Of a stretch of 64,000 nucleotides of DNA, positions 1,372 through 64,000 are shown piece by piece. Each line of letters starts with the position of its first letter. Position 1 is the first letter of the stretch. The notes beneath the pieces were generated by a model. The model saw only the letters and a list, made by a program, of their open reading frames with translations, was not told the DNA's origin and ran no database searches. Position numbers and translations under genes: made by a program. This stretch comes from Aureimonas fodinaquatilis (GTDB lineage: Bacteria > Pseudomonadota > Alphaproteobacteria > Rhizobiales > Rhizobiaceae). Location of the stretch: assembly GCF_008369445.1 (NCBI RefSeq), contig NZ_VTWH01000001.1, positions 186,001 to 250,000 of the forward strand. Direction: 5' to 3'.

Positions 1372-1415
1372 GCATTCCCCCGTTGCAGCGAAATCGCTTC
1401 AACGAGGGACAGTGC
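1372..1415. repeat. Dispersed intergenic palindrome, copy 1 (diverged)
   Basis: The core is CGTTGCAGCG, AAAT, CGCTTCAACG (1381-1404), a 10-bp hairpin with one mismatch, flanked by GCATT on the left and GGACAGTGC on the right. The same layout recurs at 42426, 42482, 44985, 49620 and 58728. This copy lies directly after the opgC stop codon. Confidence 0.65.
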
Positions 1416-8989: not shown

Positions 8990-9515
8990 CTAACTTCACT
9001 GGCACATGCATGGCTGTAACGTCAAAACGTCTTGGCCCAATGATACAATCAGGCAATGGAAACCGTCAAAAGTCACCGGTCATGATGAAATTTTATACTG
9101 CGATTAAATGACGAGCAGAAATTGCTGCCCACCATCTTTAATTGTTTTTTATGCGTTTAAGGGTTGCAAATCGTTTGAATCCGACCAATCTTCCAGCCAG
9201 TTCGCCGTGACAGTTTCGCCGTGACGATCAGTCATTAGTTGCCTGTAAGTGATGGGCAAGAGGTATCTGCATAAGACGCGATTGCGTCTGGCAGGTTGCA
9301 ACGGAGAGGATAAGGTCTTGAAGACTCGTCTTGTCAGTAAACCCCAGATTGAAATCAACCAAGGTGATCATGATACCGTGGACAGCCCTGCCAGCGCAGC
9401 ACGGGAGGCCGCCTATCCGGCATTTTTCCACGGAGTGGGATTTGCTTTCAGCGCAATTGAAAGCACGCGCAAAAACTGAAGCGTTGCGCCAGATCTATCG
9501 ATCATCCGCAATGCT
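8990..9515. other. Intergenic region, no supported gene
   Basis: This 526-base gap lies upstream of pabB and downstream of the phosphatase gene. It holds an 11-bp direct repeat TTCGCCGTGAC at 9201-9211 and 9215-9225, and a perfect 6-bp hairpin AGACGC-GATT-GCGTCT at 9274-9289. Two overlapping plus-strand ORFs (9249-9479 and 9331-9519) have no recognisable content. The pabB promoter is expected near 9000-9150. Confidence 0.5.
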
Positions 9516-10343
9516 CTAACTCTGCTGTTCACTGGCCACCAGGGCCGGGCGGACAAGACCACCCGGGCGGTTCGACAGAAACCTGCCCGTGTGGTGCCAG
9601 ATCCGCATACCGGTCAGCCTCCCTGTCAGGCACGCCCCGGTGTCAAGATTGACCCTGTTCGCTTCATAGATTGGCTGTTCCACCGGAGTGTGCCCATGCA
9701 CAACGAGCCGGTCGAGCAGGTGCGATTGCGAGTAAAATTCCGAGCGGATTGTTGTCAGAAGCGTGTCGCCCTGTTTTTCAAGCGGAATGTTTGGCATAAG
9801 TCCGGCATGCACGAACAAATATCCCGGGGCTTCAATAAACACTGCCAATGATTTCAGAAATTGCAGATGCGCGAGTGGGATATTCTTGCGCACAAGCACG
9901 TTCAGCGCTTCCTGCCCGGCCGCGGTCTGATCGTACTGGCTCACGTCCACTCCGTAGGATGCCAGAGTTTGCGCTCCGCCATAGCCCAGCCACTCGGCCA
10001 GCCTGACCCGCCCTTCCAGATAATCCAGCATCATCAGTTCATGGTTGCCAGCAAGGCAGAACCTGACAAAGCCCTGTGGCGGTGGCTGCATCAAATGATC
10101 AATGACACCGGAAGACGCAGGGCCTCTGTCAACGTAATCACCCAGCATGATGATCAGCTTGTCGCCGGGAAAATTGGCTGCGTCGATGATGATCTGTTGC
10201 TCCAGTGCGCGCAGTTCATCAAAACAACCATGAACATCACCGATAGCGTAGGTAACGCAGTCCAGGTGTTCCAGTCCGATGCGCTTCAACGCATTGCGAG
10301 GTGCCTCTTCAGACTGCGGAGAACTTCGCGACAGGTTTTTCAT
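9516..10343 (-). CDS. Calcineurin-like metallophosphoesterase (serine/threonine phosphatase family)
   Basis: A 275-residue PPP-family phosphatase. The family metal-binding signatures are all present: GDVHG near residue 37, GDYVDRG near 68 and GNHE near 99, plus VVHGHTP with the late histidine near 215. Such bacterial enzymes act on phosphoproteins or on dinucleoside polyphosphates (ApaH, PrpE types), so the substrate is open. The gene stands alone on the minus strand. It is soluble with no signal peptide. Confidence 0.88.
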   Translation of the reverse strand: MKNLSRSSPQSEEAPRNALKRIGLEHLDCVTYAIGDVHGCFDELRALEQQIIIDAANFPGDKLIIMLGDYVDRGPASSGVIDHLMQPPPQGFVRFCLAGNHELMMLDYLEGRVRLAEWLGYGGAQTLASYGVDVSQYDQTAAGQEALNVLVRKNIPLAHLQFLKSLAVFIEAPGYLFVHAGLMPNIPLEKQGDTLLTTIRSEFYSQSHLLDRLVVHGHTPVEQPIYEANRVNLDTGACLTGRLTGMRIWHHTGRFLSNRPGGLVRPALVASEQQS

Positions 10344-42425: not shown

Positions 42426-42525
42426 GCATTTCCCGTTGAAACGGCAGCGTTTCAACGACAGGACAATGCGACAAGAGTAAAGCATTTCCCGTTGAAACGG
42501 CAACGTTTCAACGACAGGACAATGC
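42426..42525. repeat. Tandem pair of dispersed palindromes, copies 2 and 3
   Basis: Two nearly identical 44-base units (42426-42469 and 42482-42525, period 56) run GCATTTCCCGTTGAAACGG-NN-ACGTTTCAACG or GCGTTTCAACG-ACAGGACAATGC. They start right after the petC stop codon and precede the terminator. Each folds into a hairpin from CGTTGAAACG and CGTTTCAACG. Confidence 0.85.
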
Positions 42526-42533
42526 AGATAATA

Positions 42534-42557
42534 AAAAAGGGCCGCGAGGCCCTTTTT
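42534..42557. terminator. Strong Rho-independent terminator of petABC
   Basis: AAAAAGGGCC, loop GCGA, GGCCCTTTTT: a perfect 10-bp stem ending in a T run, and symmetrical so it can also end the minus-strand MaoC genes converging from the other side. Confidence 0.92.
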
Positions 42558-42583
42558 CTTTGACAAGAGAGCCTTCATCCCGG

Positions 42584-44847: not shown

Positions 44848-44984
44848 GGGATACACTCTTCATTCAATATGCAGCCCATGCCATCAAGGCTGGTGGGCTG
44901 AAGCGGGCCAAACCTAAGAGCGCAATGCTCCAACGACTTTGCGGGCAATGATGGTGCGCCACTGCCCTGACACATTACTTTGTC

Positions 44985-45032
44985 GCATTGTCCTGCGGTT
45001 GAAACATATCCGTTTCAACGGCAGGACAATGC
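44985..45032. repeat. Dispersed palindrome, copy 4 (longest hairpin)
   Basis: GCATTGTCCTGCGGTTGAAAC, six bases, GTTTCAACGGCAGGACAATGC: a 21-bp stem with one mismatch. Here the left flank GCATTGTCCTGC is the mirror of the right flank GCAGGACAATGC, so the element is palindromic over its full length. It lies between pth and ychF, close to the pth stop codon. Confidence 0.85.
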
Positions 45033-45037
45033 TTTAT

Positions 45038-49590: not shown

Positions 49591-49619
49591 AAAATTCTAT
49601 CCTGTTAACGACGATCAGA

Positions 49620-49663
49620 GCATTTCTCGATGAACCGGTGGCGTTTCAACGGCAAAACAATGT
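49620..49663. repeat. Dispersed palindrome, copy 5 (decayed)
   Basis: GCATTTCTCGATGAACCGG then GCGTTTCAACGGCAAAACAATG keeps the layout and right arm of the family, but the left arm has three substitutions so the hairpin is weak. It lies between pgeF and the M24 gene. Confidence 0.6.
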
Positions 49664-49676
49664 GACAAACAAAGCG

Positions 49677-50486
49677 CTAGCGCTCCAGAACAATGGCGGA
49701 AAGCTGCCGCCCGTAGTCTGCTTCACCGCGATGCGTGGTTCGACGATAGGAAAAGAACCAGTCGGGTTCCTGATATGTGCATTGCTCAACAAAATCTGCC
49801 TGCACGCCGCAGTTTTCCAGAGTTGCGACGATAAACGCGGGCAGGTCAAACTGGAATTTGTCCGCACTGACCCCCGGAGTGAAAAAACGCTCGAATTTCT
49901 GGTCTTTTGTCACCAGTTGGGCCCGCATCTCCGCACCCACTTCATAATTTCGCCGGGTAATCGTCGGGCCAAGAATTGCAAGTGTTGTCTGTCGTGCCGC
50001 GCCCAGATTTTCCATTGTTGCGATGGTTGCCTGCAACACACCGCCAATGGCTCCACGCCAACCGGCGTGGGCTGCGCCAATGACGCCCGCATCACGATCG
50101 GCGAACAAAATTGGCCCGCAATCTGCCGTGACAACGCCGATGGCAACACCGGGTGTGTTGCTGACAACAGCATCGGCCCGGGGTCTCGGGCTTGCGAAAG
50201 GCGCATCGGCAATGACCACATCTGCCGAGTGAAACTGCCACGGCGTGGCAATATCTGCATCCGGTACACCCAGATAGGTCGCTGCCAGGTGCCGGTTCTG
50301 CCGAACCGATTCGGCGTTATCATCCGAGCCGGCACCAGCATTCAACCCGTGATAAATGCCTTCAGACACACCACCGCGCCGGGTGAAAAACGCGTGGCGG
50401 ATACCGTCCAGCGCTGCAAGCTGAGGAGAAAGGATAATGTCTTCGTCGCGCAAGGGCGGTGTGCTTTCGGTCGAACAATTCAACAT
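49677..50486 (-). CDS. pgeF: Peptidoglycan editing factor PgeF (laccase domain, YfiH)
   Basis: A 269-residue cytoplasmic member of the YfiH/LACC1 family, which in E. coli prevents misincorporated amino acids in peptidoglycan. The Cys/His centre is visible in WQFHSADV (His near 83), TADCGPILF (Cys near 123) and AAHAGWRGA (His near 140). I use the ATG at 50486; a TTG at 50522 overlapping the upstream stop is an alternative. It ends the lgt-midA-pgeF operon. Confidence 0.92.
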   Translation of the reverse strand: MLNCSTESTPPLRDEDIILSPQLAALDGIRHAFFTRRGGVSEGIYHGLNAGAGSDDNAESVRQNRHLAATYLGVPDADIATPWQFHSADVVIADAPFASPRPRADAVVSNTPGVAIGVVTADCGPILFADRDAGVIGAAHAGWRGAIGGVLQATIATMENLGAARQTTLAILGPTITRRNYEVGAEMRAQLVTKDQKFERFFTPGVSADKFQFDLPAFIVATLENCGVQADFVEQCTYQEPDWFFSYRRTTHRGEADYGRQLSAIVLER

Positions 50487-58721: not shown

Positions 58722-58727
58722 CCTGAA

Positions 58728-58771
58728 GCACCTCTCGTTGAAACGGATGCGTTTCAACGAGAGGACAATGC
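58728..58771. repeat. Dispersed palindrome, copy 6
   Basis: CCTCTCGTTGAAACG, loop GATG, CGTTTCAACGAGAGG: a perfect 15-bp stem, with GCA on the left and ACAATGC on the right as in the other copies. It begins six bases after the ilvE stop codon, like the copy after petC. Confidence 0.85.
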
Positions 58772-58877
58772 GCCCATACAAAGCGTGCGGAGCGTTTTCG
58801 TTGATCGGATGAGATCACCAGACGCTCCGGACGCTTTGCGCTTTCGGGCAAAAGGTTTTACAGCAGAACCCACGTTC

Positions 58878-63374: not shown

Positions 63375-63683
63375 GGTGACTATATGGGCTTTCAACACGA
63401 ACAGGAAAAGGGCTCGGTTTTGTTCACCTTTCGCTTACCAAAGGTGGCTTATGGTAACACTTGTCCGCTTGAGTTTGCGGTCTATATCGCCGCCCCGATT
63501 TGTATTGCGTACCGGGCGGTGGCTGACTGGGCTCGTCGTCGCGAGTTTTTGCGGCGACGGGCACGGCTGGCCTGAAAGCTTGCTTCTGGAACAGTCCTGG
63601 TCGAAACAAAATCGTTTCGACACTGCGACTGATCAAAGAGCTGGATCGTCTCCGGTGCTCGAAGACAACTTCTGACGAACTGA

Positions 63684-64000
63684 CTAGGCGGGCACCGGTG
63701 TTGGCAGACCATTCTGGTCCAATGCCACCATGGTGAAGACCCCCTCTGTCACCTTGACATTATCACTTGTCAAATGCCGTTGCGCCCATGATTCCACCAG
63801 TATGCGGATGGATGAACGGCCAACATGTTCCACTGTGGTGTAAACGGACAATGTGTCGCCAATTTTGACCGGGCGTTTGAAAACCAGCCTGTCCACCGCA
63901 ATCGTGGCAACCCGGCCTTGCGCTCGCTCTGCACCTTTGATGCCAGCGGCAAGGTCCATCTGCGCCATCACCCATCCGCCGAAAATATCGCCCGCAGCAT
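63684..64000 (-). CDS. Acyl-CoA thioesterase (YciA-type hot-dog), 5' end beyond the window
   Basis: The C-terminal 105 residues of a hot-dog acyl-CoA thioesterase. The fold segment AAGDIFGGWVMAQMDLAAGIKG at the window end contains the catalytic Asp of the family, followed by VATIAVDRLVFKRPVKIGDTLSVYTTVEHVGRSS-type strands. The gene runs past position 64000, so the N-terminus is not visible. Substrate chain length is unknown. Confidence 0.88.
   Translation of the reverse strand, partial: AAGDIFGGWVMAQMDLAAGIKGAERAQGRVATIAVDRLVFKRPVKIGDTLSVYTTVEHVGRSSIRILVESWAQRHLTSDNVKVTEGVFTMVALDQNGLPTPVPA

Follow-up and report, generated by a model that had tools for sequence, protein, structure and literature searches.

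Scattered through a 64-kb stretch of the Aureimonas fodinaquatilis genome are short palindromes lying between genes, and the question they raise is what kind of element they are and how they came to be there. The stretch (hereafter the window; C1:186001-250000) belongs to a 3.93-Mb assembly in 8 contigs that is 98% complete. A first-pass annotation of the window had listed six palindromes, at 1372, 42426, 42482, 44985, 49620 and 58728, each of 44-48 bases, as a REP-like family that may act in mRNA stability or termination or be spread by a RAYT-type transposase. All six were found there (table 1). They are one arm, here called arm A, of a two-hairpin repeat of about 100 bases that is scattered through this genome and through the order.

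Table 1. Copies of the repeat and a neighbouring hairpin in the window. R1 is the covariance model of arm A; it was trained on 15 copies that include all six window copies listed at first, so its scores measure consistency and are not independent proof. R2 is the model of the composite.
Feature	Position	Strand	R1 (bits)	R2	Remarks
Diverged arm A (CGTTGCAGCG/CGCTTCAACG)	1372-1415	+	47.1	26.8 bits	no convincing arm B; 1 nt beyond the stop of an OpgC-family ORF (1417-2610, - strand; OpgC_C)
Arm A, tandem copy 1	42426-42469	+	71.6		after petC (cytochrome c1, ORF end 42424); left edge CTAAAGC, a YTAR
Arm A, tandem copy 2	42482-42525	+	71.8		after petC; period 56
Terminator-like GC hairpin (A- and T-tracts)	42533-42558	+			directly after the petC tandem pair
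Composite	44937-45037	-	47.9	42.9 bits	arm A (44985-45032), a nearly symmetric 48-base form, ends 5 nt from the pth stop; linker GACAAAGTAATGTGT; degraded arm B
Arm A (49620-49663) and linker GACAAACAAAG	49615-49691	+	55.1	42.9 bits	arm B unrecognisable; 13 nt from the pgeF stop
Full composite	58723-58833	+	63.5	64.1 bits, E 1.1e-11	arm A 58728-58771, starting 6 nt past the ilvE stop; linker GCCCATACAAAGCGT; arm B
Degenerate composite	63586-63686	+		E 3.5e-4	inner stem GTCGAAAC...GTTTCGAC, linker GACTGATCAAAGAGC; nhmmer E 4.4e-7

The core sequence CGTTGAAACG, allowing at most one mismatch, matches the window 17 times, against 5.5 +/- 2.3 times in 100 shuffled versions, none of which (0/100) reached 17. 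The shared core and flank proposed earlier held in part: both core arms are exact in three of the six copies (42426, 42482 and 58728), but only one is exact in 44985 and 49620 and none in 1372, and the common right flank GGACAATGC is exact in 4/6 and inexact in the remaining two. The description of copy 4 (44985) as palindromic over 48 bases is correct but for several mismatches close to the loop and a single stem mismatch, and it folds strongly (-35.6 kcal/mol, z -8.9). Folding z-scores against shuffles range from -5 to -9 in five of the six copies, and 49620 (z +0.71) folds no better than its shuffles. As the annotation had said, most copies stand just past a stop codon (in 5/6 the distance to the stop of an ORF is 1-13 nt, 42482 being the second of a tandem) and two follow petC in tandem. 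Its length of 44-48 bases applies to arm A alone, but the unit is often larger, as in the full 111-base composite at 58723-58833.

A degenerate seventh copy (63586-63686) had been missed. The one full composite in the window stands at 58723-58833; those at 44937-45037 and 63586-63686 are degraded, and the 1372 copy and the petC pair consist of arm A only, R2 forcing weak second arms on them. R2 also forced its arm B onto the hairpin at 42533-42558, which is separate from the repeat and was not listed by the consensus scanner. Weak R2 matches on both strands at 9446-9576 (E 0.03-0.04) are possibly an older relic or chance. Membership of a known RNA family was considered and rejected: an Rfam search of the window at the gathering score returned only two tRNAs and left the repeat unmatched.

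A genome-wide search with the pattern CGTTGAAACG-N(2-6)-CGTTTCAACG, a check that the annotation itself had proposed, gave 22 exact places; three of these fall in the window, and the reversed control pattern gave 0. Arm A was found at at least 147 distinct places (the best 150 of 3,476 candidates), and at least 35 further composite places were found beyond these among the 103 composite rows listed for this genome. The window copies at 1372 and 63586 also fall outside the 147, which brings the repeat to at least 184 places (147 + 35 + 2) in the 3.93-Mb genome.

The larger unit was seen on reading the downstream context of 108 arm A copies, where a linker and a second palindrome often come next. 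This composite measures 100-111 bases and consists of arm A, which is asymmetric and carries a bulge, a linker (consensus GACAAAACAAAGAGT) and arm B (TAGAGC...GCTCTA), whose consensus in alignment A4 is TAGAGCGTTTCAGGTGATC...GATCACCTGAAACGCTCTA. Alignment A4 comprises 24 composites hand-picked from 38, with 12 of the 31 from this genome and two (L046 and L050) of the seven from relatives left out. The ends of the composite consensus are terminal inverted repeats, CTAnAGCATTTC and GAAACGCTCTA, and the element is non-coding. By profile, arm B was reached in 55 of 101 arrays of arm A, partly in eight and not in 38; 58 of 214 profile matches, at 57 places, were near full length.

The edges of the repeat are rich in TA. 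At the arm A edge, taken at the 5'-most copy of the 101 arrays, YTAR was found in 26/101 (background 0.16%), with Y at -5 in 77/101 and TA at -4/-3 in 35/101 (background 2.0%). The arm B edge has TA in 10 of the 24 aligned composites, and the consensus has TA at both composite ends. The intergenic placement noted in the window extends to the whole genome, none of the 147 arm A places overlapping a called gene; this count, like those of stops and spacers below, uses gene calls from a home-made caller. When spacers were counted by class, as had also been proposed, convergent ones made up 27/101 of those with an element and 16/180 of those without (p 1e-4), and divergent ones 15/101 and 41/180 (p 0.12). 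Genome-wide, a called stop lies within 6 nt of the array edge in 30/101 cases and a called start in 1/101. The proximity of stops may follow from the edge itself, because YTAR contains TAG and TAA, which would make a stop codon a ready target. Insertions close to stops would be tolerated and those near promoters removed, which would give the observed placement.

Two orthologous sites in relatives from the same genus indicate how the repeat moves. At both sites, neither of which concerns a copy from this genome, two sister species (G005 and G014) carry the complete composite and a third (G012) lacks it; over one region the first two are 92% identical to each other and G012 is 89-90% identical to them. 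At site 1, G012 reads CCTTGGCTA followed directly by GGCGATC, and G014 and G005 read CCTTGGCTA, the composite, TC and then GGCGATC. In G014 and G005 alike the right junction thus reads TC in place of TA, which fits TA with one change. At site 2, G012 has CACCCCTGGTCGAG, G005 has CACCCCTG, the composite and TGGTCGAG, and G014 has CACCCCTA, the composite and CAGTCGAG. The edges are TG...TG in G005, TA...CA in G014 and a single TG in G012, and the site in G005 is a clean 2-base duplication. In more distant relatives, for which only lengths were compared, the spacers are shorter than the filled sites by 84-91 bases in five (site 1) and by 112-122 bases in six (site 2). The empty state therefore looks ancestral, and the difference at both sites most likely arose by gain of the composite.

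The nearest relatives of this genome are 72-76% identical to it over the longest matches; being roughly a quarter diverged, they are too distant to provide empty sites for its own copies. A third syntenic site was not alignable and gave no clean junction, and presence also differs between genomes, again without clean junctions, at loci L244 and L238. No insertion of the repeat was found in the syntenic blocks shared by G010 and G016 (~152-160 kb), G005 and G014 (116 kb) and G005 and G012 (85 kb), in which the profiles find no copy, the two matches there being at chance level (E 0.23-0.24).

A discrete insertion with target duplication, as in a MITE, was found at two sites, with 2 bases duplicated cleanly at one and a TA-compatible junction at the other. 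From these sites and the YTAR-rich arm A edges we conclude that the composite is probably a MITE-like passenger whose insertion target is TA/YTAR. What is new here is the pair of filled and empty orthologous sites of a whole composite, with a 2-base TA-type duplication that is clean at one of the two. We consider it likely that the palindromes represent arm A of a mobile repeat about 100 bp long, MITE-like and non-autonomous, built of a YTAR edge, arm A, linker, arm B and a TA edge. A TA/YTAR-specific transposase acting in trans would move the composite, and an autonomous copy would hold a transposase gene bounded by YTARAGCATTTC...GAAACGCTCTAR.

The linker-arm B junction AACAAAGAGWTAGAGC was detected in 22 of the 199 genomes searched within the order, this one among them, with one match for the reversed control. 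Two separate arms with other stem letters were recognised in 8/12 fetched examples, from six other families (folds judged by eye). R2 composites number at least 129 here (among at most the best 132 candidates per genome). The 20 remaining species of the genus have 0-20, six further genera in the family 2-43, and two further families 3-11. Copy number is thus what sets this genome apart, by a gap that is overstated because R2, which took 19 of 24 rows from this genome, leans to it and gives low counts in relatives. A species-specific element had been suggested by the 0-6 R1 matches per genus relative and by 12 scattered single places of the exact core (from a contig scan whose genome set possibly lacked the own genome); this reading was rejected, since the architecture recurs in relatives with different stem letters.

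Similar stretches also occur on 43 plasmid records, 11 of which cover at least 80%. By name these records belong to Agrobacterium (22), Shinella (10), Rhizobium, Ensifer, Methylobacterium and Roseateles (2 each), and Ochrobactrum, Martelella and Peteryoungia (1 each). When a relative's copy was compared with plasmids, 13 Sinorhizobium, three Rhizobium and three other records (Mesorhizobium among the names) matched, 0/19 covering at least 80%. Two plasmids named Roseateles sp. XES5 (NZ_CP084753.1 and NZ_CP084754.1) bear full-length relatives of the repeat; Roseateles is a betaproteobacterium, and the name may be wrong. Carriage by phages was considered and set aside, with 0 matches in 50,697 phage records.

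In 28 of the 101 arrays arm A stands in two to four copies, at a spacing of 54-63 in 39/46 cases and 99-103 in 7/46. Pairs of equal length show 95.8% arm A identity inside arrays and 78.2% from one array to another, and because the former exceeds the latter, arm A appears to have been duplicated locally; arm A with its linker would have expanded in place into tandem arrays via slippage or unequal crossing-over. Composite transposition leaves the arm-A-only copies unexplained, since 38 arrays are without arm B. Two contigs start with arm A arrays (L065, C1:339-558; L148, C6:338-439) that come after almost identical sequence (..GCTTCCAGTTCTAA); the assembly may therefore break within a duplicated region beside these arrays.

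As to the enzyme that would move the composite in trans, a transposase of the IS5 family, to which IS711 belongs, can be considered. According to the available text of the sources, IS711 of Brucella duplicates the TA of YTAR and prefers the Bru-RS palindromes (PMC2266754, PMC3163539), and the edge of our composite likewise favours YTAR. In the relative G013, neighbouring DUF4096 insertion sequences (L284, L290 and L292) were compared in a search that took only TA-flanked ends: one has inverted ends starting GAGC, but the match to the composite is limited to these four letters and others start GG. In this genome, searches for DUF4096 (PF13340), DDE_Tnp_1 (PF01609) and DDE_3 (PF13358) gave 0 matches, the first two of which speak against an IS711-like mover. 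IS630/Tc1 elements, which also duplicate TA, are an alternative, though PF13358 gave 0 matches here. The mover has either been lost, is absent from the assembly or is a transposase of another type; an IS711-like enzyme is possible but on balance doubtful, and we treat it as a lead, not a finding.

A different reading is that the repeats are selected in place as hairpins at RNA 3' ends, with a role in termination, processing or mRNA stability. It draws on the strong folding of five of the six window copies and on the stops near 30 of the 101 arrays, although a YTAR target alone would also yield such proximity. It draws too on the covariation of the stems. Each arm is an inverted repeat, with 91-96% of cells paired in arm A and 83% in arm B (24/38 composites). 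Among the 24 aligned composites, changes on both sides of a pair were seen in 75 cells, compared with 28.8 +/- 4.4 after shuffling and 8-27 with slid partners, and 88.2% of cells are paired, against 34-43% when slid; the structure was derived from the same alignment, which favours it over the slid versions, and related rows can exceed shuffles without structure. Stem letters that differ from species to species are a firmer sign of pairing than this test.

In transcript sense, G-U was counted 39 times and A-C 41 times (58 ungapped copies in tandem spacers); on the element strand, 103 copies gave 61 G-U against 46 A-C (p 0.18). With no excess of G-U over A-C on the transcript strand, there is no support for selection of each copy as RNA, and the copies appear to decay without RNA constraint. 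It is in the source copies that pairing would be kept up, since the stems show covariation across copies and species while single copies decay without a G-U preference. Orientation in tandem spacers shows no significant bias either (34 same, 24 opposite; p 0.24), so that the proposed effect on mRNA stability found no backing in either comparison. An intrinsic terminator in the element sense was rejected, with five or more T in the 8 nt after the hairpin in 0/147 copies, and behind the petC pair there is a separate hairpin that itself looks like a terminator. Both observations speak against termination in the element sense, but in the reverse sense 21/147 arm A hairpins have a T-rich tail (background 3.8%), which favours an RNA role. 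Some arm A copies could terminate opposite-strand transcripts. The evidence opposes selection on each copy as RNA, and selection in place as 3' end hairpins is unlikely; individual copies may still affect transcripts.

The MITE-like composite that we prefer resembles several known repeats. CIR elements (CcrM-associated intergenic repeats) were reportedly described by Chen and Shapiro in 2003, and RIME (Rhizobium-specific intergenic mosaic elements), of which RIME1 is about 108 bp long with two large palindromes, are said to go back to Osteras in 1995. As given in the available part of a 2007 review, CIR are ~110 bp long and lie between genes and not inside them; their two arms, each a long inverted repeat, are connected by a linker, the ends are TA, and GANTC stands near the loop (PMC2229807). 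Their hosts are Caulobacter and related alphaproteobacteria. All of these features but GANTC are found here, so that by architecture, likened through the published description, the repeat is filed with the CIR-type two-armed repeats, to which it would belong. It differs from CIR in its arm-A-only tandem arrays and, as far as CIR have been described, in the evidence for a 2-base target duplication, which the same part of the review lists for CIR as '?' while calling for more information on movement (PMC2229807).

The other difference from CIR bears on a further reading, by which the repeat would be a DNA-level signal, either a GANTC site for methylation by CcrM, a role on which there has been speculation for CIR, or an architecture site. 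GGAATC is the commonest arm A loop (23/147), and GANTC is present in 32/147 arm A copies, 28 of them with it at one position of the loop, at 5.0 per kb against a background of 1.6, and in 5/12 examples from other families. It is missing from 115/147 copies, which argues that the site is not maintained in this genome, and from all seven window copies, and a role of this kind appears quite improbable.

The weakest reading takes the repeats for REP/BIME elements mobilised by a RAYT (Y1 tyrosine transposase). Of it, the intergenic palindromes that spread in high copy genome-wide, with tandem pairs and arrays and an asymmetric, bulged arm, do stand. As to both RAYT and REP identity it was ruled out and is highly improbable, because Pfam Y1_Tnp (PF01797), searched as the check for a REP-associated transposase, has 0 matches in the 98%-complete genome and was positive in 5/14 control genomes, because the unit is often a two-hairpin composite of ~100 bp with TA/YTAR-type edges, and because 2 bases are duplicated at the clean insertion site, a duplication that, to our knowledge, Y1 enzymes of the IS200/IS605 type do not make. 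Short palindromes and tandem arrays are what the repeat shares with REP/BIME as presented in the available text (PMC3733652). The Correia/NEMIS and RUP elements, which are MITEs, are like our composite in their length of ~100 bp, TA ends and non-autonomy; as far as the source text was available, theirs is one stem formed from paired 5' and 3' ends, whereas here each half has its own hairpin (PMC2229807).

Further counterparts exist among the repeats of the order. RIME are, in the accessible portions of the sources, intergenic repeats of rhizobia (PMC2573895, PMC2245857), likened to ours by description. Bru-RS1 and Bru-RS2 of Brucella are given there as 103 and 106 bp long (PMC10800456, PMC3163539, PMC2266754); length, palindromic repeats and an association with YTAR/TA resemble ours and may point to homology by description, with the difference that for Brucella it is the insertion of IS711 into Bru-RS to which the YTAR observation refers. 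By architecture, our repeat probably belongs with the RIME and Bru-RS types as well. No target duplication is reported for CIR, RIME or Bru-RS elements themselves in the literature searched, which was available in part and did not include the original descriptions.

A wider proposal, which we regard as evenly balanced, is that the CIR-, RIME- and Bru-RS-type repeats of the order form one old class of MITE with YTAR insertion and TA duplication. Their hairpins would be kept palindromic by the needs of transposition at the DNA level and not by an RNA function, the stem variant peculiar to each species would be kept uniform by bursts out of a few source copies, and arm A could amplify alone in place. 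Two-armed repeats have been known for decades in Caulobacter, in Brucella and probably in rhizobia; the kind is thus known, and its spread is now testable. The filled and empty sites, the YTAR-rich edge and the comparison of G-U against A-C offer a concrete, testable answer on movement. Targeting of YTAR may explain both the adjacency of these repeats to stop codons and the presence of IS711, which itself targets YTAR, within Bru-RS repeats.
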